This document shows positions 3,394 through 17,213 of a DNA stretch of 38,272 nucleotides, piece by piece (position 1 is the stretch's first letter; every line of letters starts with the position of its first letter). Source of the stretch: Lachnospiraceae bacterium (GTDB taxonomy: Bacteria; Bacillota; Clostridia; Lachnospirales; Lachnospiraceae); contig JAQUVX010000029.1 of NCBI GenBank assembly GCA_028693165.1, positions 1 through 38,272 on the forward strand, written 5' to 3'. Below the pieces are notes generated by a model that did not search any database, had not been told where the DNA came from, and worked only from the letters and a program-made list of their open reading frames with translations. Both the position numbers and the translations under genes were made by a program.

Positions 3394-3992
3394 TGAATCA
3401 AAAAGAGAGAATGATGGCGGGGCTTCCCTACAAGGCGTGGCTGGATGGTCTGGAGGAGGAGCGCATGGCCTGCAAGCAGAAGCTTTGCGAATTCAATCTG
3501 CTGCCGCCGGGAGAAAGCGCAAAGATTCCGGGACTGCTGAAGGACATTCTGGGAAAGGCGGGGGAGAATGTCTGGATTGAGGCGCCGTTTCACTGTGATT
3601 ATGGATGGAATATAGAGGTGGGGGAGAATTTCTTTGCAAACTATAACCTGACCATTTTGGATGTGGGAAAGGTAACGATTGGGGCGGATGTGCAGATTGC
3701 TCCGAATGTATCGATCTATACCGCTGGGCATCCGGTTCATCCGGAGAGCCGGAGAACCGGATATGAGTATGGGATTCCGATCACCATCGGGGACGATGTG
3801 TGGATCGGCGGCAATACGGTGATTCTGCCGGGCGTGACCATCGGCCGGGGCTCGGTCATCGGGGCGGGGAGCGTCGTGACGAAGGATCTGCCGGAGTATG
3901 TGATCGCGGCGGGAAATCCCTGCCGGGTGATTCGGACGATTACCGAGGCGGACCGGAAATTTTACTACAAAGATCAGGAATTTGATTTGTAG
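3393..3992 (+). CDS. Sugar O-acetyltransferase of the maltose/galactoside acetyltransferase (NodL/LacA/Maa) type
   Basis: A 199-residue cytoplasmic acetyl-CoA-dependent acetyltransferase. The first 55 residues match the helical Maa/NodL N-terminal cap (M-x-x-G-x-x-Y, D-x-x-L, R), and the rest is a left-handed beta-helix of hexapeptide repeats with the family's catalytic His region (Y-T-A-G-H-P-V-H-P) and the late I-G-D-D-V-W-I-G-G-N and G-A-G-S-V-V-T-K-D-L-P blocks, ending in A-G-N-P-C-R-V-I-R. The length is normal. It is translationally coupled to the MATE-PHP gene (TAATG overlap). Its 3' end overlaps the 3' end of the convergent PrpR-like gene by 19 bp, so there is no room for a conventional terminator between them. 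The acceptor sugar is unknown. Confidence 0.9.
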   Translation: MNQKERMMAGLPYKAWLDGLEEERMACKQKLCEFNLLPPGESAKIPGLLKDILGKAGENVWIEAPFHCDYGWNIEVGENFFANYNLTILDVGKVTIGADVQIAPNVSIYTAGHPVHPESRRTGYEYGIPITIGDDVWIGGNTVILPGVTIGRGSVIGAGSVVTKDLPEYVIAAGNPCRVIRTITEADRKFYYKDQEFDL

Positions 3993-5761
3993 TAGCGCCA
4001 TAAGGTGGTTCGCGAGATCCCCAGGCGCTTGGCGGCGACAGACTGATTGCCGTCGCATTCGTTCAGAACCCGGAATACCAGTTCTTTGGTCATCTCCTCC
4101 AGCGTGCGGTTGAGATCGAAGCGCTCCGGCTGTGAGCGAAGACCCTCGGCGACGGGGGAGCCGCTCTCCAAATCCAGCACCCGCTTGACATCTTCGGCGC
4201 TGATCAGCGCCGAGGCGGAGGTGGTGGTCAGCTCCTGCAGCACCCGCTTAAACTGCGATAAGTTGTGCGGCCAGGGGAAATTCTGCATCAGCTTCACAGC
4301 CTCGTCGTTCATGCCGATCACGTCACTGACCTGCGTGATGCCGAACTGGCTTAAGAACAGGTTGATCAGCGCGGGGATGCGCTCCTTCTGGCTGCGAAGC
4401 GGGGGAAGGTGCATATTCAGGCAGCACAGCTTGTCGGCGAGAATGCTGCCCTTGTCCTGCGTGCTGTCTCCGGCATCCCGCGTGCAGGAAAAGATGACCC
4501 GGTTGCGGGTGCACACATCCATGTCGATGAGCACGGCCAGCAACTGCCGCAGCTTCTCCTGCGACAAGGCATCGATCTGCGAGAGGTAGATGGTCACTTT
4601 GGATTCCGCGAAGGGCGAATTGTGGCTGCTTTGCAGATGCTCCCAGGATTTGTCATTTAACAGTGCGCAGTTGATCGAGATGAAGGGATGGCTGCGCATG
4701 GTGCTGCGGGAGTAGATCATGGTGGCCACGGATTCCTTGCCGGTGCCCTCCTCGCCGATCAGCATGACCGGCCGGTCGGACTGGCTGATGCGTTTGATAT
4801 TGTCCTCTAAGTTGGCAATGTCGCCGGCGCTGCTGTAGAAGCTGTTGTAAAATACCTCCTGGGCCTGCTGATGCGTGTAATAGTGGATGCCGCTGCGGGC
4901 CGAGGAAAACGGCGCCTTGCTGCGGGAAAAGTAAAAGGTGGTGTAGGTCTTGCTCCCGGAGGTAAAGTGCTGCGCCTTGATCGAATACATCGTTCCATCT
5001 AAGGACTTGATCATTCGGATCGGTCCTTCTTCCGTATAATTCTCCAATTCATGTTTCAGCATCGTGATAATCGCCTGCCGGTTCTCCACGTCAACGGTTG
5101 AGAAGTACAGATTTTGGCTGTCGTCAAACACGACGGTCTCATTGGACTGCCCGGAAATGACCTCCCGCAGGAAATGGTTCTCCGCCTGTAACGTAGTTAA
5201 GCCGTTGCAGAGCAGAATCGCATCGGAGAATGCCTTGTGGATGCTTTCTTTCCCGGAGGTGATCAGAATCGCGTTCATGCCGAGACGCTTGGCGGCGATG
5301 GACGCGACGGCATCGCAGAGAACGGTCCGGTAGCCCTTCTGCCAGGCATCGTGGACGGCCTGCTCGGCCATGGCGGCGTGGTCGATGGTGAACAGTTCGG
5401 CGGTGACCGATAAAAGCTCGGACAGATGTGATGCGTTCTCGGTGACGTTTGGAAAACCGACGATGGCGAATTTGTCGGAAACATTTTCAACCAGATGAAG
5501 CGCGCGCAGGATATCGTACTCTGTGATCGGAATCTCGACCACCGGAAGATCCACCTCACTGCGGAGCAGCTTGGCGGTTCCGCCGCGGGATATAATGACA
5601 TCATAGTCGGCGTGAAAATTGTCCTGGGCGACCTCAACCCCTTTTTCAAGGTCGCCGACCATAGCCTTAAGTTCGATCTGAGGAAAACCGAGAGCGGTTT
5701 TCTGCATCAGGATCTGCATCCCGTCGTAGGGTGCGATCCCCAATACTCTGATTCTGCTCAT
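3974..5761 (-). CDS. PrpR-like regulator: PrpR_N sensor, degenerate AAA+ domain, Fis-type HTH
   Basis: A 595-residue regulator. Residues 1-185 match the PrpR_N sensor domain (I-I-S-R-G-G-T-A at 56-63, then a periplasmic-binding-like fold with F-A-I-V-G-F-P-N-V). A linker of about 185-315 leads to an AAA+ module with an intact Walker A (GEEGTGKE, 336-343). The sigma-54 contact motif GAFTGA is absent, and the usual Walker B region is replaced by K-V-T-I-Y-L-S-Q-I-D-A-L. Residues 555-592 are a Fis-like helix-turn-helix (V-A-A-K-R-L-G-I-S-R-T-T-L-W-R). It therefore probably acts on ordinary RNA polymerase rather than sigma-54. It diverges from the TRAP/acid-sugar operon and is its likely regulator. 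The effector is presumably the imported acid or an intermediate. An AGGAGG site precedes the ATG. Confidence 0.88.
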   Translation of the reverse strand: MSRIRVLGIAPYDGMQILMQKTALGFPQIELKAMVGDLEKGVEVAQDNFHADYDVIISRGGTAKLLRSEVDLPVVEIPITEYDILRALHLVENVSDKFAIVGFPNVTENASHLSELLSVTAELFTIDHAAMAEQAVHDAWQKGYRTVLCDAVASIAAKRLGMNAILITSGKESIHKAFSDAILLCNGLTTLQAENHFLREVISGQSNETVVFDDSQNLYFSTVDVENRQAIITMLKHELENYTEEGPIRMIKSLDGTMYSIKAQHFTSGSKTYTTFYFSRSKAPFSSARSGIHYYTHQQAQEVFYNSFYSSAGDIANLEDNIKRISQSDRPVMLIGEEGTGKESVATMIYSRSTMRSHPFISINCALLNDKSWEHLQSSHNSPFAESKVTIYLSQIDALSQEKLRQLLAVLIDMDVCTRNRVIFSCTRDAGDSTQDKGSILADKLCCLNMHLPPLRSQKERIPALINLFLSQFGITQVSDVIGMNDEAVKLMQNFPWPHNLSQFKRVLQELTTTSASALISAEDVKRVLDLESGSPVAEGLRSQPERFDLNRTLEEMTKELVFRVLNECDGNQSVAAKRLGISRTTLWRYYKSNS

Positions 5762-5804
5762 AGAGAGCCTCCTTTGTTTGCCTGCGGCTTGTTGTTATAT
5801 CTGG

Positions 5805-5813
5805 ATTATAGCA
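5805..5813 (-). promoter_or_regulatory. Extended -10 promoter for the PrpR-like regulator
   Basis: On the minus strand the sequence TGCTATAAT (complement of 5805-5813) is a perfect extended -10 element, 43 bases upstream of the regulator's ATG. No convincing -35 hexamer is present at 17 bp, which is common for extended -10 promoters. Confidence 0.5.
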
Positions 5814-5849
5814 ATAATGAACAAAAAAAGCTACTCAATTTTTACATGA

Positions 5850-5864
5850 GTTTCAAAATGAAAC
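5850..5864. promoter_or_regulatory. GTTTCA dyad 1, candidate operator
   Basis: GTTTCAAAATGAAAC is a perfect inverted repeat (6-bp arms, 3-bp centre). It lies between the two divergent promoters, about 20 bp upstream of the -35 of the TRAP operon promoter. It matches a second site at 5967-5981 at 12 of 15 positions by my count. A regulator binding both sites could loop out or straddle the promoter. Confidence 0.4.
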
Positions 5865-5884
5865 AACAAAATAGATAAAAAGAA

Positions 5885-5913
5885 TTGAAAATCGGGAAAC
5901 ATACTGGTAAAAT
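5885..5913 (+). promoter_or_regulatory. Sigma-A-type promoter of the TRAP/acid-sugar operon
   Basis: TTGAAA (5885-5890), a 17-bp spacer, and TAAAAT (5908-5913) preceded by TGG form a good housekeeping promoter with an extended -10. The predicted start near 5920 gives a leader of about 117 bases before the ATG at 6037. I found no -24/-12 sigma-54 promoter in the gap, which agrees with the missing GAFTGA motif in the divergent regulator. Confidence 0.6.
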
Positions 5914-5966
5914 AGTCACATAAGGAAAAAGAACTTTCAAATTTCCTGTTTTCCAAAAACGCAGAT

Positions 5967-5981
5967 GTTTCAAAAAAGAAC
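5967..5981. promoter_or_regulatory. GTTTCA dyad 2, candidate operator in the leader
   Basis: GTTTCAAAAAAGAAC keeps the left arm of dyad 1 exactly and the right arm partly. It lies about 50 bases downstream of the predicted transcription start, so binding here would be expected to repress or to form a loop with dyad 1. Confidence 0.3.
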
Positions 5982-6036
5982 ACCTGGCGAACGAGGAAGA
6001 AACCACAAACTCTAACTATGTATAGGGAGGACAATC

Positions 6037-7155
6037 ATGAGAAAGAGCAATTTATTAAAGAAAGTTTGTGCATCAGTTTTGGCAGTATCTATGGTTACTT
6101 TGACAGCCTGCAGCGGATCTGGAACCACAGCGGCAACCACCGCAGCACCGGCGGCACCGGCAGCGGAGACTACCGCAGCAGCGGCGGAGGCAGGGGGAGC
6201 TTCCGAAGGAACAATCGATATGAGCGGAACGACCTTGAACTTCTGGTCCGATAAGGTTGGCTCCGGTACTTACAACATGATCGTTGCCATGAGCAAGGTT
6301 CTGGAAGAAAAAGGTGGATTTGGAACAGTCAACGTTGACCCGTCTTATCCGGGCGGCATGGGCGCTCCGTACATCTTCAAGGACCCAAACGTAAGCCTTT
6401 CCTTCGTAAACGGTGCTCCTGCAAAATGGGCGATGGAGACCGGCACTCTGGACAGAGAGCCAACCGATGGCTATGCAGCAGTAATCGGCGGTCTGACCGC
6501 AGTTGCATACATCAACTGTATTTCAACGGATTTCCTGACCAAGAACAATGTAACTTCTCTGGAAGAAATCTTTGAGAAAAAGCTTCCGCTTAGAATTGGC
6601 TGTTCCTCCAAGGGCTCCATGGATGCAGAGGGCGCATACCTGATGCTTGAGTATTTCGGCGTAACCGAAGATGATTTGAAGAGCTGGGGCGGTTCGATTA
6701 CCAACCAGGGCGGAGATCAGAATGCAGAGGCAATCGCAGACGGACAGATCGATTTCTACATCGACCACACTTCTTCAAGCTCCTCCACTATGGCACAGAT
6801 CGCATCAACCTGTGATGTTACCTTCCTTCAGTGGTCAGAAGATATGTGCAACTGGTTTGTAAACGATCAGGGCTTTGATTTAATTCCGATCCCGGCAGGC
6901 AGCTTCAAGGGACAGGATGCAGAACTGAAACTTCCGGGATCACCGGACTGCCTGTTCGCAAACACCGCACTGGATGATGACACGGTTTATATGATCGTTA
7001 AGACTCTGAGCGAGAACAGAGACGCACTGGTAACCGAGTACGCATCCCTTTCTCCGTGGGAGCCGGAAAATGCATGGGAAGAGACCAAGAGAGGCGGCGT
7101 TGCGCTTCACCCGGGTGCTGAGAGATATTACAAAGAGATGGGTTATATGAAATAA
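6037..7155 (+). CDS. TRAP transporter substrate-binding lipoprotein, TAXI family
   Basis: A 372-residue extracytoplasmic binding protein. Residues 1-24 are a lipoprotein signal (basic start, hydrophobic core, Leu-Thr-Ala-Cys), with Cys25 as the lipidation site, followed by an Ala/Thr/Pro/Glu-rich linker to about residue 60. The mature part begins L-N-F-W-S-D-K-V-G-S-G-T-Y and continues as a TAXI-type periplasmic-binding fold (K-L-P-L-R-I-G-C-S-S-K-G-S region). A strong site (AGGGAGG, 6024-6030) precedes the ATG. It is the first gene of the operon and is followed by a hairpin and then the fused permease, the usual TAXI arrangement. By context it captures the acid sugar or related carboxylate used by the downstream enzymes. 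TAXI proteins are seldom linked to acid sugars, so the ligand deserves testing. Confidence 0.88.
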   Translation: MRKSNLLKKVCASVLAVSMVTLTACSGSGTTAATTAAPAAPAAETTAAAAEAGGASEGTIDMSGTTLNFWSDKVGSGTYNMIVAMSKVLEEKGGFGTVNVDPSYPGGMGAPYIFKDPNVSLSFVNGAPAKWAMETGTLDREPTDGYAAVIGGLTAVAYINCISTDFLTKNNVTSLEEIFEKKLPLRIGCSSKGSMDAEGAYLMLEYFGVTEDDLKSWGGSITNQGGDQNAEAIADGQIDFYIDHTSSSSSTMAQIASTCDVTFLQWSEDMCNWFVNDQGFDLIPIPAGSFKGQDAELKLPGSPDCLFANTALDDDTVYMIVKTLSENRDALVTEYASLSPWEPENAWEETKRGGVALHPGAERYYKEMGYMK

Positions 7156-7183
7156 AAGACAATTCAGTATAGTCTATTTTGAG

Positions 7184-7212
7184 GCCGGACGCCATTTCGG
7201 TGTCCGGCTTTT
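7184..7212 (+). terminator. Intra-operon hairpin after the binding-protein gene
   Basis: GCCGGACGCC (7184-7193), loop ATTTC and GGTGTCCGGC (7199-7208) make a 10-bp stem (one G-T pair), followed by TTTT. It lies between the binding-protein gene and the AGGAGG of the permease gene. It most likely acts as a partial terminator or 3' stabiliser, giving more binding protein than permease. Confidence 0.65.
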
Positions 7213-7226
7213 ATTAGGAGGAAATT

Positions 7227-9206
7227 ATGAGCACAGAAAATAATACGGTAAAAGATTCTACGGCGAGCAAGCTGGATGAAAAGGCAAAAGCACTCGCAAA
7301 TGAGCCGGATGAAGATTCCAAAATTGCCAAAATGATCAAAGCCATGCCGAAATGGCGGTATACGCTTTTGGTGGGGATGGCGTTCTTTTGGCTGGCGTTC
7401 CAGCTCTACATCAAACTGGTAAAACCGTTCGACCCGTGGTTCCAGCTTCCGCTTCATATGTGTCTGGCCCTGTACTTTGTGGTACTGATGAACCCGATGG
7501 CCGACAAATACAAAAAGAAAATCTGGTGGCTCTATGATGGGGCACTGATCGTGGCGATATCGGTTATTTTGTATTACTTCATTAGCCATGCATCCAAGCT
7601 GAACCTGCGTCTGTACAGTGTAGACCCGATGTCCAACTTTGAGGTTGTCGTTGCGGTACTGCTTTTGTTTACGGTGATGGAAGCAGTTCGAAGAGTAGTA
7701 AGTATGTCACTGTTTGTGGTTATTGCATTTTTTATGGCCTATGCATGGTTTGGTCAGTATGTACCGGGCCTGCTTCATTTCCAGGGCATCTCCTTCTCCC
7801 GATTCTGTGAGACATTGATGCTTGGTGAGAACGGAATTTTCGGTTCTCCGCTGGGAACTTCCCTGAATACGTTGTTCTATTTCCTGCTGTTTGGTACGTT
7901 CTTTGCCAATACGGGCGGCGGCGGTGTCCTGATCGACGCAGGCATGAAGCTCAGCGACAAGACGGTCGGCGGACCGGCGAAGGCAGCCGTAATTTCTTCT
8001 GGACTGATGGGAATGATTTCCGGTTCTGCAGTTGCCAATGTATCCAGTACCGGTGTGTTTACGATCCCGCTGATGAAGCGGACTGGCTACTCTCCGGAAG
8101 AAGCAGCATCCGTTGAGTCGGTTGCATCGACCGGCGGACAGATCATGCCTCCGATCATGGGCGCAGGAGCATTTATCATGGCAGAGATCATCGGTATCCA
8201 GTATGTCAATATCGCGGCAGCGGCAATTATCCCTGCAATCGCATATTTTGCATCTGCGTTTATGCTGGTACATCTGATTGCACGTAAGAAACACATCGGA
8301 AAAGACAGCGGCGTGAAATACGAAGGCAAGCCGATTCTTCCGCGTGTATACAGACTTCTTCCGATTGTCGTTTTAGTCGTGATGATCATAAAGGGCTATT
8401 CCCTTCCGAGATCTGCCATCTACTGTACCGTACTGGCAATCGTGGTAAGCATGAGCTCCAGGGATACACGGATGTCCTTGAAGAAACTGATTCAGACCCT
8501 GCTCGACGGATGCCGTCAGGCAGCGAACATCGCGATCCCGACAGCAGCCTGCGGCATCATGATCGGTATTGTGGTAAGAAGTGGTATTGCTGTTAAGATT
8601 GCCAAGATGATCGACAAGACCGGCAACAACAGTCTGTTCCTGGCACTGATTATCGCAGCAGCAGGCTGCCTGCTCCTCGGTATGGCACTTCCGACGGTAG
8701 CTGCTTATCTGATTGCAAACACCCTGTTCATCTCTGCAATTCAGGGACTTGGAATCTCTGCACTGACTGCGAACATGTTCATCTTCTACTTTGGCGTAGT
8801 TGCACAGATTACACCGCCAGTATGTCTGGCTTCGTTTACAGCCGCGGGAATTGCGGGAGGAAGTGCCTGGAAGACGGGCTGGAAAGCCTTCTCGTATGCA
8901 AGTGTCGCGTTCATAGCACCGTTTATGTTCGTGTATCGTCCCGCACTTCTGCTGGAAGGCCAGATTTCCGAGATCGTAATCGCCGGTTCCATGCTATTCC
9001 TTGCAACCTTCTGTATTGCCGGCTGCGTATCGGGTTATATGTTTAAGACACTGAATAAAATCGAGCGCGCCCTGTTCCTGATTGCGGCATTGTTCTTTAT
9101 TCTGCCGAGCGGATTTTCCGATATCGCGGGTCTTACTGCCGGTGCGGTACTGATCGCATATACGCTGGTAACAGGAAAAAAAGAAAGAGCTGGGGTGATG
9201 GCATGA
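7227..9206 (+). CDS. TRAP transporter fused permease (4TM/12TM, DctQ-DctM type)
   Basis: A 659-residue integral membrane protein. A hydrophilic N-terminus of about 45 residues precedes a four-helix DctQ-like part (about 48-190), then the large DctM-like subunit with its conserved glycine-rich hairpin loops (G-L-M-G-M-I-S-G-S-A-V-A-N-V near 260 and the G-G-Q-I-M-P-P-I-M-G-A-G-A-F motif near 305). This single-chain form is the standard partner of TAXI binding proteins and uses an ion gradient for uptake. AGGAGG lies just before the ATG. The TGA overlaps the ATG of the next gene (ATGA), so it is translationally coupled to the cupin. Confidence 0.93.
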   Translation: MSTENNTVKDSTASKLDEKAKALANEPDEDSKIAKMIKAMPKWRYTLLVGMAFFWLAFQLYIKLVKPFDPWFQLPLHMCLALYFVVLMNPMADKYKKKIWWLYDGALIVAISVILYYFISHASKLNLRLYSVDPMSNFEVVVAVLLLFTVMEAVRRVVSMSLFVVIAFFMAYAWFGQYVPGLLHFQGISFSRFCETLMLGENGIFGSPLGTSLNTLFYFLLFGTFFANTGGGGVLIDAGMKLSDKTVGGPAKAAVISSGLMGMISGSAVANVSSTGVFTIPLMKRTGYSPEEAASVESVASTGGQIMPPIMGAGAFIMAEIIGIQYVNIAAAAIIPAIAYFASAFMLVHLIARKKHIGKDSGVKYEGKPILPRVYRLLPIVVLVVMIIKGYSLPRSAIYCTVLAIVVSMSSRDTRMSLKKLIQTLLDGCRQAANIAIPTAACGIMIGIVVRSGIAVKIAKMIDKTGNNSLFLALIIAAAGCLLLGMALPTVAAYLIANTLFISAIQGLGISALTANMFIFYFGVVAQITPPVCLASFTAAGIAGGSAWKTGWKAFSYASVAFIAPFMFVYRPALLLEGQISEIVIAGSMLFLATFCIAGCVSGYMFKTLNKIERALFLIAALFFILPSGFSDIAGLTAGAVLIAYTLVTGKKERAGVMA

Positions 9207-9643
9207 TCGTAGACCGCATGGAATATGCAGAAGAATATTATGGTATCCTGCCGCATCTGAAAGATGCAGTGGAGTTTATTACGGCAAATCCGGACCCAGG
9301 GGAAGGCAAACACGCCTTCCCGGGCGGGTTTGTGATGTGTCAGACCGGAGAGACGAGGGCGTTGCCGGGGGATTACGAGATGCACCGCAAATACATCGAT
9401 ATTCAGGTGCTTCGCGAAGGCCGGGAGATTCTTGCGTGGAACCGGAAAGAAAATATGCAGCCAAGTGTTGCCTATGACGAAGGGAAGGACAAAGAGATGG
9501 TGAGCGGTGAAGGCAGCGTCCTGGAACTGAAACCGGGGATGTTTGCGATTCTTTACCCATCGGATGCGCATAAGGCTTGCCGTCATCTGGACGGAGAGCA
9601 GCCATGTACCTTCTCAAAATACGTGGTAAAACTTGAAGTGTAA
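9203..9643 (+). CDS. YhcH/YjgK/YiaL (EbgC-like) cupin protein
   Basis: A 146-residue single-domain cupin. It carries the family hallmark E-M-H-R-K-Y-I-D-I-Q (about residues 59-68) and the second metal-side motif Y-P-S-D-A-H-K-A (about 116-123), both histidine-containing. Relatives sit in sialate (YhcH) and diketogulonate (YiaL, beside the TRAP genes yiaMNO) operons and are thought to handle sugar anomers or open/closed forms, though their biochemistry is poorly established. The gene overlaps the permease by four bases, and the kinase gene starts 23 bases after it. In this operon it could act on a lactone or cyclic form of the imported acid; that is inference. Confidence 0.9.
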   Translation: MIVDRMEYAEEYYGILPHLKDAVEFITANPDPGEGKHAFPGGFVMCQTGETRALPGDYEMHRKYIDIQVLREGREILAWNRKENMQPSVAYDEGKDKEMVSGEGSVLELKPGMFAILYPSDAHKACRHLDGEQPCTFSKYVVKLEV

Positions 9644-9666
9644 GGAAAGAAAAAGGGGCACTTCCT

Positions 9667-10935
9667 ATGATAGAGTTACTGATTATTGCAGACGATTTTA
9701 CCGGTGCCTTGGACACTGGGGTTCAGTTCACAAAGCGCGGGGCCAAAACCTGCGTGGTAACGGACCCGGATATTGATTACACAAAGCTGGATGCGGATGT
9801 GAAGGTATTGTCTTTGGACGCGGAAACCCGCCATCTGGATGCCGGACAGGCTTATGAGGTGGTGGCACGCGTTGTACGGGCTGCGCGCAGGGCAAACGTT
9901 CCTTACATCTACAAAAAGACGGATTCTGCACTCAGGGGCAACATCGGTGCGGAGCTGGCGGCATTGTGTGAGGAAGCTGGAGAAACGGTGCATTTTGTTC
10001 CGGCATTTCCACAGTGCGGGCGAACCACAAAGAACGGCATTCATTATGTGGATGGAATTCCGGTTGGGGAAAGTGTATTCGGAGAGGACCCGTATGAACC
10101 GGTCCGGCACTCGGCAGTCAAAGATATTATAGCAGAACAAACCCGGATCAAAACTACGCTTGCCGATGGCATGATGTCTGACACAACGGCCCGGAAGGAA
10201 GCGGGAATCGTGATTTTCGACGCGGAGACCCCGGAGCAGCTGGATGCGATCGCAAAGAGGCTGGAGGAAAACGGCGGTCTGCATGTGAGTGCAGGATGCG
10301 CCGGGCTTGCATCCCGATTCGCAGGGATTCTGGGGTATACCAGTTCTGGGATTGCGATGCCGAAGCTGCCGGAAAAACTGCTGGTGGCATGCGGGAGCGT
10401 CAATCCGATCACGGTAGCCCAGCTTGCGCGGGCAGAGCAGGAAGGTTGCACGAGAATTCACTTGAAGGCAGAGGAAAAGCTGGATGCTGCCTGGCTCAGC
10501 AGTGCGCAGGCAGAGCAAAAGCTGGAGGAATGGCTTGCGGTCTGCGGCCGGGAGGAAATCTGCATCCTGGATTCGAATGATGAGAAAGATTCGGGTGATA
10601 CCATGGAGTATGCATCGGCTCATGGCCTGCCGCTGGAAACCGTCCGGGTCAGGATCGCCTCCGCGGTGGGTGAGATCGTGAAAAACCTGCTGGACAGAGG
10701 ACTTTCGTCCACACTTCTCGTGACGGGCGGCGATACGCTGATGGGATTTATGCACCATATCGGTGTCAGCATTCTGGTGCCGATCTGTGAGCCGATCACG
10801 GGAGTTGTATTATCGGGGTTTTGTTACAATGACGAACAATATTACATCATATCGAAATCAGGCGGTTTTGGTGGAACAACGTTGATCCGGGATCTGATGA
10901 CGATCTTAAAACAGGAAAAGGAGAATGTATGTTAG
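9667..10935 (+). CDS. DUF1537 four-carbon acid sugar kinase (OtnK/DtnK-like)
   Basis: A 422-residue cytoplasmic kinase of normal family length. The N-terminal acid-sugar-binding domain begins with A-D-D-F-T-G-A at 8-14, and the region around 90-105 holds K-K-T-D-S-A-L-R-G-N, both DUF1537 signatures. The C-terminal nucleotide-binding domain contains T-G-G-D-T at 353-357 and a following G-V-V-L-S-G. Characterised members phosphorylate D-threonate, D-erythronate or 2-keto-tetronates at O-4. The pdxA2-like gene three positions downstream is the known partner for D-threonate or D-erythronate 4-phosphate. The gene's end overlaps the next start by seven bases, so it is co-translated with the dehydrogenase. 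The exact stereoisomer cannot be read from sequence. Confidence 0.9.
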   Translation: MIELLIIADDFTGALDTGVQFTKRGAKTCVVTDPDIDYTKLDADVKVLSLDAETRHLDAGQAYEVVARVVRAARRANVPYIYKKTDSALRGNIGAELAALCEEAGETVHFVPAFPQCGRTTKNGIHYVDGIPVGESVFGEDPYEPVRHSAVKDIIAEQTRIKTTLADGMMSDTTARKEAGIVIFDAETPEQLDAIAKRLEENGGLHVSAGCAGLASRFAGILGYTSSGIAMPKLPEKLLVACGSVNPITVAQLARAEQEGCTRIHLKAEEKLDAAWLSSAQAEQKLEEWLAVCGREEICILDSNDEKDSGDTMEYASAHGLPLETVRVRIASAVGEIVKNLLDRGLSSTLLVTGGDTLMGFMHHIGVSILVPICEPITGVVLSGFCYNDEQYYIISKSGGFGGTTLIRDLMTILKQEKENVC

Positions 10936-12092
10936 AACAATATAGTCTCAAACTGCCAAAGGCAATCTATGGCGGAAAGGATTCCATCGATCAGCTGACA
11001 AAGCTCATACAGACCAATGGATATCAAAAGATTGCGGTATTTACAGACAAGGTGATCGAGGAGACGGGTCTTCTTGAGGTCAGCCTGAATGCGATCCGGG
11101 CAGCAGGCGTACCTTATACGATCTATGACGAGCTGCCGCCGGAGCCAACCTACATGGCAGTGCAGCAGGTCATTGATGAATTCAAAGGAAGCGGGGCGGA
11201 TTTTATCGTGGCATGCGGCGGCGGATCTGTGATGGATGCGGCAAAGCTGGCGAGTGTGCTCACTACAGATGAATACGGCGTGAAGGAGCTTTTGGACAAT
11301 CCGGGCATGGCGAAGAAATGTGTTGCCATCGCCCTGATCCCGACGACGGCAGGAACCGGCGCGGAGGTAACCCCCAACGCGATCGTGGCGGTGCCGGAGA
11401 AGGAATTGAAGGTTGGGATTGTCAATGACAATATGGTGTCGGACTATGTATTTCTGGATGCAAGGATGATCAAAAATCTTCCGAGAAGCATCGCGGCGGC
11501 TACCGGCGTGGACACGCTGGCCCACGCAATCGAATGCTTTACAAGCAAAAAAGCAAATCCGTTTTCGGATACCTTCGCGTTGGAGGCGCTGGATCTGGTA
11601 TTTAACAACATCGAGAAAGCCTGTGACGACCCGGAGGCGATGGAGGCCAAGAATCAGATGCAGATCGCGGCGCTGTACGGCGGGATTGCGATCACTGCAT
11701 CCGGCACCACGGCAGTTCACGCACTCAGCTATCCGCTGGGCGGAAAGTACCACATTGCACATGGCGTATCCAATGCCATGCTGTTGGCTGCGGTCATGAA
11801 ATATAATGAACCGTCCGTGCGGGAGCTTTTTGCAAAGGCTTATGACCGCTGCTGCCACGACAGCGCAAACCGCTGTGTAACCGCAGAGGAGAAGAGCGCA
11901 TGGATCATCAGCCGCCTGGAGGAGATCGTGAAGAATCTGGATATTCCGACATCCTTAAAGCCCTATGGTGTGGCGGACAGTGATCTGGACGGACTGGTGG
12001 AAGCGGGAATGCAGGTCACCAGACTTCTGGTAAACAATATGCGCGAGGTAACCCCGGAGGCTGCGCGCGCGATTTATCTGACAATCATGTAG
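10929..12092 (+). CDS. Iron-containing alcohol dehydrogenase (group III)
   Basis: A 387-residue NAD(P)-dependent oxidoreductase. The Rossmann-type half has the family nucleotide-binding motif G-G-G-S-V-M-D-A-A-K (97-106) and P-T-T-A-G-T-G-A-E-V-T (138-148). The helical half supplies the metal site: Asp195 and His199 in D-T-L-A-H-A-I-E, His264, and His278 in H-I-A-H-G. All four ligands are present, so it should bind Fe(II) or Zn(II). Group III members reduce aldehydes or oxidise alcohols and hydroxy acids, and specificity is not visible here. It lies between the acid-sugar kinase (7-base overlap) and the aldolase (start 13 bases after its stop). It may reduce an aldehyde released by the aldolase or oxidise a hydroxyl before phosphorylation. 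It is not required by the described threonate/erythronate routes. Confidence 0.9.
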   Translation: MLEQYSLKLPKAIYGGKDSIDQLTKLIQTNGYQKIAVFTDKVIEETGLLEVSLNAIRAAGVPYTIYDELPPEPTYMAVQQVIDEFKGSGADFIVACGGGSVMDAAKLASVLTTDEYGVKELLDNPGMAKKCVAIALIPTTAGTGAEVTPNAIVAVPEKELKVGIVNDNMVSDYVFLDARMIKNLPRSIAAATGVDTLAHAIECFTSKKANPFSDTFALEALDLVFNNIEKACDDPEAMEAKNQMQIAALYGGIAITASGTTAVHALSYPLGGKYHIAHGVSNAMLLAAVMKYNEPSVRELFAKAYDRCCHDSANRCVTAEEKSAWIISRLEEIVKNLDIPTSLKPYGVADSDLDGLVEAGMQVTRLLVNNMREVTPEAARAIYLTIM

Positions 12093-12105
12093 AAAGGATA
12101 TGACT

Positions 12106-13014
12106 ATGAAAAGTGTAGAGATCAAAGGAATCATTGTTCCGATTACCACTCCGATGAATGCGGATGAGTCCATCAACGTGGAGGAGCTTCGCAAACAGGT
12201 CGACCGTGAAATTGAAAACGGAATCGATGCCATTTTCCCTTTTGGAACCAATGGTGAGGGTTATATCTTAAATGCAGCGGAGAAGGAGCTGGTACTCAAG
12301 ACCGTTGTGGACCAGGTTGCAGGCCGTGTTCCGGTGTATGCAGGCTCTGGCTGCATTTCGACGAAGGAAACCATCGAGCAGTCCAAGATGGCGCAGGCGG
12401 CGGGGGCCGATGTGCTGTCCATCATCACACCGAGCTTCGCGGCGGCAAGCCAGGAAGAGCTGTATGTGCATTATAAGACGGTTGCTGAGGCGGTGGATAT
12501 GCCGATCGTTCTCTACAACATCCCGGCGCGCACCGGCAATGCAATCACACCAGCCACCGTTGGAAGACTGGCAGAGATTGACAACATCGTAGGAGCGAAA
12601 GATTCTTCCGGAAACTTTGCCAACATTCTCGGCTATATTGAGGCCGGCAAGAAGAAAACGAACGGCAAATTCAGTGTCCTTTCCGGCAATGACCAGCTGA
12701 TCATCTGGACACTGCAGGCAGGCGGAACCGGTGGAATTGCGGGCTGCGCCAACGTATATCCGCATACCATGGCATCGATTTATGATGAGTTCATGGCGGG
12801 CAACTGGGAGAAGGCAAAAGAATATCAGGACAGCATCGCATCCTTCCGCGCATGTTTTAAATACGGCAATCCGAACACCATCGTCAAGACGGCGGTCAGC
12901 CTGCTGGGCTACAACGTAGGAAAATGCCGTGCTCCATTCAATCAGGTTCCGGAGGAGGGCATCGAGGCGCTCAAGAAGGTACTGAAGGAAAACGCAGACA
13001 AGGGAATGCACTAA
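12106..13014 (+). CDS. DapA/NanA-superfamily class I aldolase or lyase
   Basis: A 302-residue TIM-barrel enzyme of the dihydrodipicolinate synthase / N-acetylneuraminate lyase family. The Schiff-base Lys165 lies in G-A-K-D-S-S-G, and Tyr137 is in Y-N-I-P-A-R-T-G; Arg142, which holds a second carboxylate in true DapA, is also present. The pyruvate-carboxylate motif reads G-T-N-G-E-G (47-52) rather than the G-T-T-G-E of DapA. I chose the ATG at 12106 because AGAAAGG (12091-12097) is eight bases upstream; an ATG at 12100 would be only two bases away. Being inside a catabolic operon, it is more likely a pyruvate-releasing aldolase or a keto-acid dehydratase than a lysine-pathway enzyme. The substrate is unknown. 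Confidence 0.88.
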   Translation: MKSVEIKGIIVPITTPMNADESINVEELRKQVDREIENGIDAIFPFGTNGEGYILNAAEKELVLKTVVDQVAGRVPVYAGSGCISTKETIEQSKMAQAAGADVLSIITPSFAAASQEELYVHYKTVAEAVDMPIVLYNIPARTGNAITPATVGRLAEIDNIVGAKDSSGNFANILGYIEAGKKKTNGKFSVLSGNDQLIIWTLQAGGTGGIAGCANVYPHTMASIYDEFMAGNWEKAKEYQDSIASFRACFKYGNPNTIVKTAVSLLGYNVGKCRAPFNQVPEEGIEALKKVLKENADKGMH

Positions 13015-13032
13015 GCAAGAGGTGGACAAAAC

Positions 13033-14067
13033 ATGGATAAACCGATTATAGGTATTACGATGGGAGATCCGGCGAGTATCGGGCCGGAGATTACCATAAA
13101 GGCATTGGCAGACAAGACATTGTATGACCGGTGCAGACCGGTTGTCGTCGGAGATTCCTGTATGCTGGAAAAGGCGAAGAAGATCGTCGGACATGAGGAG
13201 CTTGTCATTCATCCGATCAGAGAAGTGTCGGAGGCGGCATTTGCGCACGGCACAGTGGATGTCGTTGACATGAAGCTGGTGGACGCAGACACCCTTCCGA
13301 TTGGAATGGTGAGCAGAGAAGCGGGGGATGCGGCATACCGGTATGTGGTGAAGGACATCGAGCTGGCCATGGACGGGAAGGTGGATGCCACCGTCACCAA
13401 TGCTTTTAATAAAGAGGCGGTGAACCTGGCGGGACATCACTATTCGGGACATACGGAGGTCTATGCGGACAAGACCGGAACGAAGAATTACACCATGATG
13501 CTGGCGCATGAGAATGTGCGGGTGGTGCATGTGTCGACGCATGTATCGCTGCGGGAGGCGTGTGACCGGGTGAAAAAGCAGCGGGTTCTGGACGTGATCC
13601 GCATCGCCAATGATGCATGTAAATCACTGGGAATTGCCAATCCGAAGATCGGGGTGGCGGGTCTGAATCCGCACAGCGGCGAGCATGGAATGTTTGGCAC
13701 GGAAGAGATTGATGAGATCATTCCGGCTATCGAGGAGGCAAAGAAGGAAGGCATTCTCGCGGATGGACCGGTTCCGCCGGACACCGTGTTTTCTAAGGCG
13801 AGGGGCGGCTGGTATGATATTGTCGTTGCCATGTATCATGATCAGGGACATATTCCGCTGAAGGTACTGGGATTTGTTTATAATGAAAAGGAACAGAAGT
13901 GGGATGCGGTCGCCGGGGTGAATATTACGCTTGGGCTGCCGATTATCCGGGTCTCGGTGGATCATGGAACTGCGTTTGACCAGGCGGGGACGGGGACGGC
14001 GAGCGAGCTGAGTTTGGTGAATGCGATTGATTATGCGGTTTTGTTTGCGGGGAATAGGATGGGGTGA
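13033..14067 (+). CDS. pdxA2: PdxA2-like 4-phospho-acid-sugar dehydrogenase
   Basis: A 344-residue enzyme of the 4-hydroxythreonine-4-phosphate dehydrogenase family. Metal ligands are His140 (S-G-H-T-E), His214 (N-P-H-S-G-E) and His269 (M-Y-H-D-Q-G). Two positions differ from vitamin-B6 PdxA and fit the PdxA2 branch: E-H-G-M-F-G-T-E-E instead of the usual G-G-H-F-G-T-E-E, and H-D-Q-G-H-I-P-L-K. PdxA2 enzymes oxidise D-threonate or D-erythronate 4-phosphate at C3, and the product decarboxylates to dihydroxyacetone phosphate. The presence of a DUF1537 kinase in the same operon supports this catabolic role over pyridoxal synthesis. It is the last gene of the operon; the stop is followed by a palindrome-rich intergenic region. 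Confidence 0.87.
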   Translation: MDKPIIGITMGDPASIGPEITIKALADKTLYDRCRPVVVGDSCMLEKAKKIVGHEELVIHPIREVSEAAFAHGTVDVVDMKLVDADTLPIGMVSREAGDAAYRYVVKDIELAMDGKVDATVTNAFNKEAVNLAGHHYSGHTEVYADKTGTKNYTMMLAHENVRVVHVSTHVSLREACDRVKKQRVLDVIRIANDACKSLGIANPKIGVAGLNPHSGEHGMFGTEEIDEIIPAIEEAKKEGILADGPVPPDTVFSKARGGWYDIVVAMYHDQGHIPLKVLGFVYNEKEQKWDAVAGVNITLGLPIIRVSVDHGTAFDQAGTGTASELSLVNAIDYAVLFAGNRMG

Positions 14068-14089
14068 GGAAAAGAGCTGAGGTTGTGGT

Positions 14090-14275
14090 TCGCGAGATGG
14101 CGCTTCGCTGATCTCGCGAGAGGATGAGAGTGCGGGGGCGGGAGTGAGCCATGGACCTCGATTTCGCTGCGCTGCATCTCGGTCACGGGCTTCGCCCTAT
14201 GGATAAAAAGGATCAGGAACGCGCTTACGTGCAAGCACGACGCGGGTTCCTGGTCCTTTTTATCCGCATGGCTCA
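14090..14275. repeat. Nested inverted-repeat region between pdxA2-like gene and subtilase
   Basis: The 325-bp gap 14068-14392 contains several dyads. TCGCGAGAT (14090-14098) pairs with ATCTCGCGA (14111-14119). GGGC-TTC-GCCC lies at 14187-14197. A 19-bp stem at 14201-14219 pairs with 14247-14265 with one G-T pair and contains an inner GCTT/AAGC hairpin. Outside it, TGAGCCATG (14145-14153) pairs with CATGGCTCA (14267-14275). The right arm of the long stem contains CTTTTTAT, so the stem could end transcription of the catabolic operon, but the surrounding dyads exceed what a terminator needs. Further right, TATACT (14341-14346) is a plausible -10 for the subtilase. Confidence 0.6.
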
Positions 14276-14392
14276 TGGCTGGCGTGGAAAATCTTAAGAA
14301 AATTCACATAATATTCAAACTCCTTTTTGGGGAAGTGTGTTATACTTATAGGCATCGAATCATAAGTAAAGAATGCAGAGGAGTTTTGATCA

Positions 14393-15673
14393 ATGAAATG
14401 GAATAGAGGAATGACGTTATTGGCGGTGGGGGCGTTGGCTTTGCCGCTTGGGATAGAGGGAGCATGGAGGGTGCAGTTTCCGGGGAATCCGGCGAATTAT
14501 ACGTTTTCAGCGCGGGTTTATGGGCCGGGGGTGGATAACCTGTCTTCCAGCGATCCGTACGCGAAGTACCAGTGGGGTCTGAAAAATGACGGCGAGCTGC
14601 AGTATGTGGAGGTTGTGAACAAGTTCCGTGACAGTGACCCGCAGCTGGCACGCCGCATTGACTTATCGAATTATTTTGGGATTCCGGCACCGGTCGAGGG
14701 ACCGGATGCGTATGAGTTGGCGACGATTACGTCGATTCCGGGCGCGGATATCAATGTACTTCCGGCCTGGAAGCTGTATGACGCGAGCACGGAGGCTCAT
14801 CGGCCGGTGACCGTGGCTGTGATTGATACGGGAATCGATATCAGTCATCCGGATCTGGAGGGTTCGATCTGGACCAATGAAGATGAGGTCCCGGACGACG
14901 GCATTGACAATGACGGAAACGGCTACATCGATGATGTACATGGCTGGAATTTCTTCAACAACAACAATCAGATTTACGTGGGCAAGGAAGATGACCATGG
15001 GACTCACGCGGCAGGCACGATTGCTGCCACCCGAAAGAAGATCGGAATCGCCGGAATTGCGGACAATCAATATGTGAAGGTTATGTCCCTCAAGGCGCTG
15101 GGAACGGATTACGGAGTCGGTGAGGAGTCTGCAGTCATCGCGGCGATCAGGTACGCGGAGGCCAATGGCGCGTCCATCTGCAACTTAAGCTTCGGTACGA
15201 CGGAAAATTATCCGCAGCTGGAGCAGGTGATGCGGGACAGCAAGATGCTCTTTGTGGTGTCGGCAGGAAACGGCGACAGCCGGGGCGTGGGTATCAATAT
15301 TGATGAAAAACCGGATTACCCGTCCAGCTATCAGTTGGACAATGTGATCTCGGTTGCCAATATGATCTTTGATGGAAATCTGGATGTGAGCTCCAACTAC
15401 GGTGCCCAGAACGTGGATATCGCAGCACCGGGAACTTACATCGTCAGCACGATCACGGGGAATGGCTATGGCTATATGTCGGGAACCTCCATGTCGGCAC
15501 CGATGGTGACGGGAGCAGCGGCGTTCTTGTATTCGTATCGTCAGGATTTGAGCCTGCAGGATGTACGCACCGTGCTGTTAAATTCCGCGCATAAGCTGAA
15601 ACGGCTGGAGGGCAAGATCTCAAGCAACGGAATGCTGGATGTGTATGCGGCACTGACGTATGGTCAGCAGTAA
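14393..15673 (+). CDS. Exported subtilisin-like serine protease (S8 family)
   Basis: A 426-residue protease with a complete catalytic triad: Asp145 in V-I-D-T-G, His202 in D-D-H-G-T-H, and Ser366 in G-T-S-M-S-A-P; the oxyanion Asn is Asn293 in S-A-G-N-G. A loop at 166-181 rich in Asp, Asn and Gly (I-D-N-D-G-N-G-Y-I-D-D) is the calcium-type loop seen in many secreted subtilases. Residues 1-25 start with Lys and Arg followed by a hydrophobic run, a plausible signal or anchor, and about 110 residues of propeptide-like sequence precede the catalytic domain. No sortase motif or C-terminal anchor is seen. AGAGGAG lies eight bases upstream of the ATG. The gene stands alone and converges on the carboxypeptidase gene. 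The target is unknown. Confidence 0.9.
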   Translation: MKWNRGMTLLAVGALALPLGIEGAWRVQFPGNPANYTFSARVYGPGVDNLSSSDPYAKYQWGLKNDGELQYVEVVNKFRDSDPQLARRIDLSNYFGIPAPVEGPDAYELATITSIPGADINVLPAWKLYDASTEAHRPVTVAVIDTGIDISHPDLEGSIWTNEDEVPDDGIDNDGNGYIDDVHGWNFFNNNNQIYVGKEDDHGTHAAGTIAATRKKIGIAGIADNQYVKVMSLKALGTDYGVGEESAVIAAIRYAEANGASICNLSFGTTENYPQLEQVMRDSKMLFVVSAGNGDSRGVGINIDEKPDYPSSYQLDNVISVANMIFDGNLDVSSNYGAQNVDIAAPGTYIVSTITGNGYGYMSGTSMSAPMVTGAAAFLYSYRQDLSLQDVRTVLLNSAHKLKRLEGKISSNGMLDVYAALTYGQQ

Positions 15674-15710
15674 GATCCGCGCAGTGGTGTGATCAAAAGA
15701 AAATAAATCA

Positions 15711-15748
15711 AAGAAGAAAGAGTCCGGCAAGCCGGACTCTTTCTTCTT
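15711..15748. terminator. Bidirectional intrinsic terminator between the subtilase and carboxypeptidase genes
   Basis: The arms 15711-15728 and 15731-15748 are exact reverse complements (18 bp, purine-rich outer part, GTCCGGC core) around a two-base centre. The A/G-rich left flank and T/C-rich right flank serve both directions. It overlaps the stop codon of the minus-strand carboxypeptidase gene. Confidence 0.85.
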
Positions 15749-17213
15749 ATTTCTTACGGTTTTTCTCCAACCGTTCCTGCAAAAGCCGGTCGAATTCGGC
15801 ATCCTCTCCGTGCTGCTGCAGTCTCTGACGACGGCGGGCGCGGCGGCGGGCGAGGGCCTCAGCCTCCTTCTTGCGCTGGTACAAAATCCAGACGATGCCG
15901 CCTGCAATGGCAGCGATGAGAAGGATGACGAAAACAATGGCGAGAGTGGACAGAATCGCGCGCGGATTGATCTTGATGCCGGCGGTGCCCGGAGTGTCTG
16001 GTGCAGTGTCCGGATCGGCGGTGGTGTTCTCCAGCGTCTGGTTTGCGTCTGCGCTGATCTCGCCGGAGGCGGTAGATGCCATGGTCACACCGTCGCGGAC
16101 CATGAGATAGGCCTCGCCGATGGTGCGCTCATTGTAGCTGTAGCGCAGCAGTGCGACAGCCCGGTCGGGATGTGCGTCCGGGAGAGCCTCCACCGAGAGA
16201 GTCGCATCCTCAAATGCAGCATCGAGCGGGAAGGTAGCCACACGCCCGGGCTCGATCATCAGATCGGAAGCCTTGTAGGAGGTGTTGCCCAGATTGATCA
16301 TCTCCTCCCCGGTCACGTAGCGGCTTTCCAGATCTGCGATGACAACGTTCTGGAAGCTGCGAAAGCCGAAAGCCAGAAGTTCTTTGCCATCCACAAAATA
16401 CTGTCTGGGACTGCCCTTTAAGATGACGGAGATCAGGCGGCGGCCATCGCTCTCGGCGTAGGTTACCAGAGTGTTGCCCGCCTTGATGAGGTATCCGGTC
16501 TTGCCGGCCACAGCCGGCGGAAAGTAGTAATTGCTGGACGAATCTTCGGTGATGATCAGCCGGTGCTCGTTGCGGATCGTGAGACCATCGGGATTGTTGG
16601 TGGTCGCTCCCAGCTTGTGGGTGATGGAGGAACTGATCTTGAGCAGCTCTTCGTTGTTGTAAGCCGCCTGGGCGATCAGCGCCATATCGTAGGCGGACAC
16701 GACCTGATTGTCTCCGTTTAATCCGGAAGGATTCTCAAAATAGCTCTCCTGACAGCCCAAATCTGCCAGCTTCTTGTTCATCATATCGACAAAGCCGGAA
16801 ATGCTTCCGGCTGCCTGTTCGGCCAGTGCGTTGGCTGCCTGGTTCGCGGATACCAGCAGCATGGCGTAAAGACAGTCCTCCACGGTGAGCTGGTCACCGG
16901 AAACGACGCTGATCTTGTTTCCGCTGTCGGATTCGACGCTGTAGACCGCATTGTCGGAAAAGGTCACGATGTCGTCCGGCTTGCAGTGTTCCAGCACGAC
17001 GAGGGCAGTCAGGATCTTGGCGATGCTTGCCGGCGGATAGGGAACATGAATGTTCTGGCCGAACAGGATGGCACCGGAGTCAGCGTCCATGACGATTCCG
17101 GCTTCTGCCTGGATTCCGGTGTCAGTGGGCCAGGACGGCTTTGCGTAAGCCGTGAGGACGAAAAGCTGGCAGGCCAGCAGAAAACACGAGATCTGTTTTA
17201 TCTTTTGCTTCAA
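15747..17213 (-). CDS. D-alanyl-D-alanine carboxypeptidase (PBP5/DacA-type, S11 family)
   Basis: A 488-residue cell-wall enzyme that trims the terminal D-Ala of peptidoglycan stem peptides. I chose the TTG start at 17213 because AGGAGGT (complement of 17221-17227) lies seven bases upstream; the longer ATG frame from 17258 has no comparable site and would bury the signal peptide. Residues 1-24 are a signal peptide ending Ala-Tyr-Ala. The penicillin-binding motifs are complete: S-I-A-K at 63-66, S-A-N at 122-124 and K-T-G at 238-240. A PBP5-type C-terminal beta domain follows, then a Ser/Thr/Pro-rich linker, a transmembrane helix near 420-440 and a strongly basic, coiled tail of about 45 residues. 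The tail is longer than the amphipathic anchor of Escherichia coli PBP5. Confidence 0.93.
   Translation of the reverse strand: MKQKIKQISCFLLACQLFVLTAYAKPSWPTDTGIQAEAGIVMDADSGAILFGQNIHVPYPPASIAKILTALVVLEHCKPDDIVTFSDNAVYSVESDSGNKISVVSGDQLTVEDCLYAMLLVSANQAANALAEQAAGSISGFVDMMNKKLADLGCQESYFENPSGLNGDNQVVSAYDMALIAQAAYNNEELLKISSSITHKLGATTNNPDGLTIRNEHRLIITEDSSSNYYFPPAVAGKTGYLIKAGNTLVTYAESDGRRLISVILKGSPRQYFVDGKELLAFGFRSFQNVVIADLESRYVTGEEMINLGNTSYKASDLMIEPGRVATFPLDAAFEDATLSVEALPDAHPDRAVALLRYSYNERTIGEAYLMVRDGVTMASTASGEISADANQTLENTTADPDTAPDTPGTAGIKINPRAILSTLAIVFVILLIAAIAGGIVWILYQRKKEAEALARRRARRRQRLQQHGEDAEFDRLLQERLEKNRKK

Follow-up and report, generated by a model that had tools for sequence, protein, structure and literature searches.

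A TAXI-TRAP operon of a Lachnospiraceae bacterium as a candidate route for the use of the pectin sugar acid 3-deoxy-D-lyxo-2-heptulosarate

The DNA analyzed here (the window) is a stretch of 38,272 nucleotides, contig JAQUVX010000029.1 (C21 in our numbering) of assembly GCA_028693165.1 from a Lachnospiraceae bacterium, whose 3.6 Mb genome is distributed over 42 contigs and is 94% complete. Our subject is a set of seven genes on its forward strand, at 6037-14067, which are separated by 71, -4, 23, -7, 7 and 18 bases and which, because these gaps are small or negative, we read as one operon. A previous description made from the letters alone (the sequence-only reading) had named the same seven genes as a tight operon; all of them are found where it placed them, and each protein scores above the Pfam cut-off for its family (in gene order NMT1_3, DctM, DUF386, SBD_N with NBD_C, Fe-ADH with ADH_Fe_C, DHDPS and PdxA). 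Its extent of 5762 to 14067 holds at the downstream end, but 5762 is where the intergenic region begins, the first gene starting at 6037, and it left out a divergent regulator that also belongs to the system. The features are as follows.

3974 to 5761, minus strand: divergent regulator with a PrpR_N sensor, an AAA+ domain and a Fis-type helix-turn-helix (Pfam PF06506, E 2.5e-51; PF14532; PF02954)
5762 to 6036, no strand: intergenic control region between the divergent regulator and the TAXI gene
6037 to 7155, plus strand: TAXI solute-binding lipoprotein (TIGR02122, TRAP_TAXI, 4.6e-24, 84.9 bits against a cut-off of 84.35; matched by the TAXI proteins 9ibo, 8s4j and 1us4 in the PDB)
7227 to 9206, plus strand: fused TRAP permease (TIGR02123, TRAP_fused, 8.1e-170, 566.5 bits against a cut-off of 320.65)
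9203 to 9643, plus strand: YhcH/DUF386 protein, proposed ulosonate anomerase (TIGR00022, 68.5 bits against a cut-off of 45.5)
9667 to 10935, plus strand: DUF1537 acid-sugar kinase, proposed D-threonate 4-kinase (PF07005, 3.4e-51; PF17042)
10929 to 12092, plus strand: iron alcohol dehydrogenase (Fe-ADH), FucO-like, proposed semialdehyde reductase (PF00465, PF25137)
12100 to 13014, plus strand: DHDPS-family class I aldolase, proposed to act on 3-deoxy-D-lyxo-2-heptulosarate (Dha) (PF00701, 9.6e-76; K167, Y139, R144, T50-N51)
13033 to 14067, plus strand: PdxA2-like dehydrogenase/decarboxylase, proposed 4-phospho-D-threonate dehydrogenase giving dihydroxyacetone phosphate (DHAP) (PF04166, 4.1e-106)

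The TAXI protein and the single fused permease, both above their NCBIfam cut-offs, form a TAXI-TRAP transporter; passages in PMC11574862 name glutamate, 2-oxoglutarate and orthophthalate among the known TAXI ligands. The YhcH protein belongs to its general family and scores below the equivalog model for N-acetylneuraminate anomerase (NF040884, 61.6 against a cut-off of 160). The kinase is nearest to the D-threonate kinase model NF047819 (197.7 bits, below the cut-off of 450), with NF043035 next at 94.9. The best PDB matches of the Fe-ADH are the lactaldehyde reductase entries 7qnj and 1rrm, and it contains the FucO-type metal-binding motifs GVDTLAHAIE, AVHALSYP and YHIAHG, in which we take the metal ligands to be those of FucO. 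The PdxA2-like enzyme passes the general pdxA model TIGR00557 (339.3 bits against 290.35), scores below both PRK03743 (392.3 against a cut-off of 470) and the D-threonate 4-phosphate dehydrogenase model PRK03371 (348.1 against a cut-off of 583), and matches the structures 4jqp, 2hi1 and 6e85. The aldolase and Fe-ADH genes sit between the kinase and PdxA genes.

In the lysine-pathway enzyme DapA, the active site is built around a Schiff-base lysine, a tyrosine and a carboxylate-binding arginine, the last of which holds the carboxylate of aspartate semialdehyde. The window aldolase has these residues as K167, Y139 and R144, and they are invariant, together with T50-N51, in all 107 aligned aldolases, its own sequence included. 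The sequence-only reading had recognized the three residues correctly and numbered them Lys165, Tyr137 and Arg142, counting from Met3; our numbers run from the ATG at 12100. Given the DapA role of this arginine, its retention in 107 of 107 sequences suggests that the cleavage product is an aldehyde bearing a carboxylate rather than a plain sugar.

That reading had also considered that the enzyme might simply be the ordinary lysine-pathway DapA, which we reject on the comparison. A separate dapA (L097, named from translations) lies beside dapB on contig C37 of the same genome, its product is only 36% identical to the window aldolase, and the second position of the pair within the GTTGE motif differs: Thr-Thr in the DapA of this genome, where the pair is a functional feature of the enzyme, versus Thr-Asn (Asn51 in the window) in all 107 aldolases. 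The AlphaFold model (predicted local distance difference test score, pLDDT, 94.3) has the DapA fold, and the best 50 of 1899 rows in a structure search with it were DapA structures and YagE. The NanA-like protein L100 of the same genome is 21% identical and falls in a different subclade, while the aldolases of two related loci, L038 and L047, which lie close to GH143 hydrolase genes as described below, are 67-69% identical to that of the window.

To see how widely the gene set is kept, two collections were used. The first was a family sample of 299 genomes, in which the kinase query (E <= 1e-30) gave 45 matches in 42 genomes and 40 regions were analyzed; the second came from a search with the aldolase alignment across about 85,000 named genomes, which gave at least 584 relatives in 588 stretches, the best 80 of which were analyzed. 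The two overlap in four loci (L125, L127, L136 and L167), five of the best 80 loci are shorter than 6 kb, and open reading frames were called by a simple longest-frame rule, under which genes may be missed or mis-started. Among the best 80 aldolase loci, the kinase was found in 66, PdxA in 73, Fe-ADH in 68 and all three in 57. Within the family sample the aldolase occurs in 25 of the 40 kinase neighborhoods, and these 25 loci yielded the kinase in 24, Fe-ADH in 23 and PdxA in 24; the kinase of L053 was counted as missing since it runs together with the Fe-ADH in one frame, some other misses are contig ends, and L041 truly lacks an Fe-ADH between its operon genes. A close relative of the aldolase, defined as the aldolase clade by E <= 1e-85 (50% identity or more, which excludes matches in G038, G077, G099 and G164 as well as a further copy in G110 at 42% identity), is present in 29 of the 299 genomes, every one of which carries the kinase too. 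Taxa with a complete set are Lachnospiraceae, other Clostridia, Enterococcus, Streptococcus, Paenibacillus, Treponema and another spirochaete, Synergistaceae (Synergistales), Succinivibrio and a Coriobacteriaceae genome.

The aldolase and dehydrogenase genes are thus not absent from most homologous operons, and their absence was part of what the sequence-only reading had named as refuting its proposal; loci with only the kinase and PdxA do exist, however. Its suggestion that the operon merges two branches is disfavored because the four enzymes are co-conserved. TAXI was found in 17 of the 80 loci, YhcH in 19 and the two together in 10. Four actinobacterial loci (L164, L165, L174 and L177) had no Fe-ADH match in the stretch, and in these an aldo/keto reductase adjoins the aldolase; two unrelated aldehyde reductases may thus have the same place in the route. 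No Fe-ADH match was found in L105 and L163 either. Uptake genes vary by locus, the scanned relatives having CitMHS, 2HCT or TctC systems of carboxylate type (L163 among them) or TAXI-TRAP, and three loci with GH143 genes (L047, L061 and L062) have ABC systems instead. We count both the aldo/keto reductase loci and these uptake systems in favor of the route proposed below. A variant of the operon with a D-2-hydroxyacid dehydrogenase is seen in L037 (4605-5582, adjoining a TctC-type uptake system) and L131 (5202-6170), where the route may begin by oxidizing a reduced version of the substrate.

DtnK and PdxA2, the known enzymes of the kinase and PdxA2 kind, act on D-threonate, and a DapA-type aldolase yields pyruvate and an aldehyde; were this aldehyde 2,3-dihydroxy-4-oxobutanoate, its reduction would supply the kinase with a C4 sugar acid, and the precursor would be a C7 compound, a 3-deoxy-2-heptulosarate. 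By Fischer bookkeeping, two of the four D-epimers of this compound, D-lyxo and D-xylo, lead to D-threonate, and D-arabino and D-ribo do not. The idea put forward by the sequence-only reading, of a larger acid that is cleaved to pyruvate and a C4 unit which is then reduced and phosphorylated, is the one that the comparative evidence favors. We propose, with rather more belief than doubt, that the substrate imported and broken down by the operon is Dha, the D-lyxo compound, a C7 dicarboxylic ulosonic acid of the pectin rhamnogalacturonan II (RG-II); substrate, reactions and their order are all inferred. TAXI-TRAP would import free Dha and the YhcH protein would help its ring to open. The aldolase would then cut between C3 and C4 through Lys167, with Arg144 gripping the far carboxylate, to give pyruvate and 2,3-dihydroxy-4-oxobutanoate (D-threuronate), whose aldehyde the iron alcohol dehydrogenase would reduce with NADH to D-threonate. 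Phosphorylation by the DUF1537 kinase would give 4-phospho-D-threonate, which the PdxA2-like enzyme would oxidize and decarboxylate to DHAP and CO2, returning the NADH, so that the route would be redox neutral overall and DHAP would feed glycolysis.

The Dha idea was formed after the lengths of neighboring genes in related loci had been seen and before the families of those neighbors were examined. BT1020 of Bacteroides thetaiotaomicron reportedly takes part in RG-II degradation, its N-terminal half being GH143 (work of Ndeh and co-workers in 2017), and we take PF24067, the BT_1020-like N-terminal propeller, to be the Dha hydrolase GH143. In L062 a gene downstream of the kinase, PdxA and a fused protein with a formylglycine-generating-enzyme-like domain and a BNR propeller (FGE-BNR) matches PF24067 at E 1.6e-86, and the proteins of L047 and L062 match the BT1020 structure 5mqr over residues 17-595 and 26-582 (E 1.7e-115 and 2.1e-115, respectively). 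Counting strong matches only, and so leaving out weak ones in G054 and G284 of the family sample and G354 of a class sample, GH143 is present in 13 of the 299 family genomes: 8 of the 29 with the aldolase clade versus 5 of the other 270 (Fisher p 2.7e-6, a value that ignores relatedness), and none of the 13 genomes with the kinase but no aldolase clade. This test supersedes an earlier one of the kinase against GH143 (p 6e-5). In seven of the eight genomes, and hence in 7 of the 29, no more than about 12 kb separates the hydrolase gene from the aldolase (G132, G157, G158, G181, G194, G220 and G255).

Sialidase-fold genes in general go with the aldolase as well. Twelve of the family sample's 25 aldolase loci, and 40 of the best 80 loci, encode a BNR protein of about 386 residues (BNR386); its model has a pLDDT of 89.9, and 49 of the best 50 PDB rows are sialidases or neuraminidases, with template modelling (TM) scores of about 0.7. 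A sialidase-fold gene of some kind is found in 18 of the 25 aldolase loci (BNR386 in 12, GH143 in 5 more and FGE-BNR in 1 more) versus 1 of the 15 without the aldolase (Fisher p 5.6e-5, again ignoring relatedness), and this lone exception, L035, lies on a 5.3 kb contig from a genome that has the aldolase on another contig. The kinase tree, several forks of which are weak, puts the GH143-linked loci L047, L038 and L061-L066 at three separate positions. The FGE-BNR fusion stands by the operon in L061 (5513-8029), L062 (11336-13699), L065 and L066, and is also seen in stretches without the aldolase (L087 and L090).

Several results weigh against the proposal that Dha is the substrate. Since R144 is also present in lysine DapA and in the paralogue from the L099 locus of the same genome, as the alignment shows, the residue is not diagnostic. 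The only NCBIfam model that the aldolase passes is TIGR00674, dapA (221.6 bits against a cut-off of 206.15), the kinase and Fe-ADH are under every NCBIfam equivalog cut-off that they match, and the PdxA2-like enzyme passes the general model and not the D-threonate-specific one. When the association of aldolase and glycosidase is corrected for relatedness on the FastTree kinase tree, only five independent pairs are left, too few to give the test power, and the median p is 0.5. The linkage to GH143 was observed within the family only, and the aldolase clade is missing from 8 of 16 GH143 genomes (5 of the 13 in the family and all three strong carriers in the class sample of 391). In G098, the eighth genome with both genes, hydrolase and aldolase are on different contigs and the operon (L041) is the one without an Fe-ADH. 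No GH143 match was found in the window's own genome, at 94% completeness, and a BNR386 search of it, run without a positive control, was also empty, so that this organism could only use free Dha. Finally, a BT1020-N-like gene in L092 (5852-12842) sits with GH35, GH130 and GH125 genes, and L088 is similar by reading. This company suggests that PF24067 is not specific to Dha but has more than one specificity, with a substrate other than Dha for the L092 group; the L092 protein is also somewhat further from BT1020 (339 bits, versus 390 for L047 and L062).

The explanation that competes best with Dha as the substrate keeps the chemistry but changes the compound: the window organism would degrade either a derivative of Dha or a different 2-keto-3-deoxy C7 aldarate such as the D-xylo epimer, and only the GH143-linked relatives would use Dha itself. 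The empty glycosidase searches of the window genome, the fact that the D-xylo epimer likewise leads to D-threonate and the existence of the 2-hydroxyacid dehydrogenase variants all fit this explanation. The window aldolase is, however, closely similar to its counterparts in L038 and L047, both linked to GH143, and we know of no natural compound of this type besides Dha; we regard the explanation as unlikely, though it deserves to be kept in mind. Less probable again, and in our view improbable, is an operon of the known DtnK/PdxA2 kind for D-threonate or D-erythronate in which the aldolase and dehydrogenase serve an unrelated second branch. The nearest model of the kinase, the good score of the PdxA2-like enzyme with the D-threonate 4-phosphate dehydrogenase model and the kinase-PdxA loci that do without the aldolase are what such an operon would predict, but it leaves unexplained why the kinase accompanies the aldolase clade in all 29 genomes, why 57 of 80 loci keep all four genes and why sialidase-fold genes track the form with the aldolase.

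Aldol cleavage of 3-deoxy-D-manno-octulosonate (Kdo) gives D-arabinose, that of N-acetylneuraminate gives N-acetylmannosamine (ManNAc) and that of 3-deoxy-D-arabino-heptulosonate gives D-erythrose, and on these products we rejected all three compounds as substrates, as none fits the enzyme set. A catabolic operon for Kdo or sialic acid, to which the YhcH protein and the sialidase-fold neighbors would then belong, is accordingly very improbable: D-arabinose or ManNAc would leave the kinase/PdxA2 pair without a role, a separate NanA-like locus (L100, named by reading) is present in the genome, and the alternative uptake systems scanned are of carboxylate types. In its favor are the membership of the sialic-acid anomerase in the YhcH family and, in passages of PMC12168206, the mention of Kdo as the other ulosonic acid of RG-II. 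An accidental grouping, with the aldolase as a second lysine DapA or the kinase/PdxA pair serving vitamin B6 synthesis, could call on the passed models TIGR00674 and TIGR00557, on DapA as the nearest solved structures and on DUF1537 proteins some of which can make 4-hydroxythreonine phosphate (a passage in PMC7954711), but we give it the least credence of all in view of the dapA-dapB pair elsewhere, the 36% identity, Asn51 in place of Thr and the conserved grouping with an uptake system.

Returning to Dha, the wider picture that we consider slightly better than evenly balanced is of a complete and undescribed route, spread over several phyla and served by many transporters, in which carriers of GH143 or sialidase-fold genes free Dha themselves and the others, including the window organism, cross-feed on Dha left by RG-II degraders. 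It would be a new pathway assembled from known enzyme families. The nearest precedent is the D-threonate pathway (DtnK and PdxA2, giving DHAP and CO2), which Zhang and colleagues are said to have described in PNAS in 2016; it shares with the window operon a DUF1537 kinase and a PdxA2-like enzyme in one operon and the end products DHAP and CO2, and it differs in that the window operon adds an aldolase and an alcohol dehydrogenase, which we propose make D-threonate from a C7 acid. The C6 aldarate pathway, with its 5-keto-4-deoxyglucarate aldolase, tartronate semialdehyde reductase and glycerate kinase, has the same sequence of aldol cleavage to pyruvate and a semialdehyde acid, reduction and phosphorylation, but its product has three carbons and there is no PdxA2 step. 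The window's own genome has, on contig C6, a 3-hydroxyisobutyrate/tartronate semialdehyde-type reductase, a DHDPS-type aldolase and a glycerate kinase in a row (L099, 542-3630, named from translations), which is likely a C6 aldarate pathway with the logic of the window operon. Relatives of the operon share GH143 hydrolase homologues with the BT1020 system of B. thetaiotaomicron; the work on that system reportedly concerns the release of sugars from the polymer, whereas the window operon would supply the fate of Dha. Catabolism of sialic acid through NanA and YhcH likewise pairs YhcH with a DHDPS-superfamily aldolase of Schiff-base type, but the window aldolase is in another subclade from the NanA-like L100, and a downstream set for a C4 acid replaces the ManNAc enzymes.

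Passages in the literature describe RG-II as common in the human diet (PMC12282258), name Dha as a pectin component (PMC6353982 and PMC6854810) and give RG-II as the only known source of Dha in plants (PMC12168206). Among the matches listed from the openly licensed PubMed Central literature, no description of Dha use or breakdown by any organism was found, nor was anything on point for the operon's neighbors in combination with pectin. A four-enzyme route with D-threonate as a clear intermediate makes the question of Dha use directly testable; it offers candidate functions for the widespread DUF1537, DHDPS-type, Fe-ADH and sialidase-fold proteins and points to a sugar acid as the ligand of a TAXI protein.

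The PrpR_N-type regulator also recurs by related operons, in 51 of the best 80 aldolase loci and 16 of the 25 aldolase loci of the family sample. Activators of sigma-54 require a GAFTGA loop in the AAA+ domain, and no GAFTGA-like motif was found in the window regulator or in any of the 66 relatives scanned; nor was there a -24/-12 promoter match with three or fewer mismatches in 5762-6036. On these two results the regulator is probably not a sigma-54 activator despite its domain names. A sigma-54 promoter for the operon was likewise rejected; loose matches across the whole window number 168 versus 173 expected. A sigma-70-like site lies at 5885-5913 (10 of 12 positions, with TG before the second hexamer), one of 9 such sites in the scan versus 8.5 expected; the promoter and terminator scans gave chance-level results throughout. 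In the related locus L033, a 1559-residue polysaccharide lyase family 8 protein with choline-binding repeats (12289-16968) adjoins the operon's regulator.

Elsewhere in the window, a frame of 717 residues at 1240-3393 that starts with TTG encodes a MATE transporter (PF01554) followed by a PHP phosphoesterase domain (PF02811, residues 453-639), which would be an unusual fusion if real. At 31050-33050 genes for a nucleotidyltransferase, a HAD phosphatase and a SIS isomerase stand in a row that resembles nucleotide-heptose synthesis, followed by glycosyltransferase and nucleotide-sugar genes (by reading).

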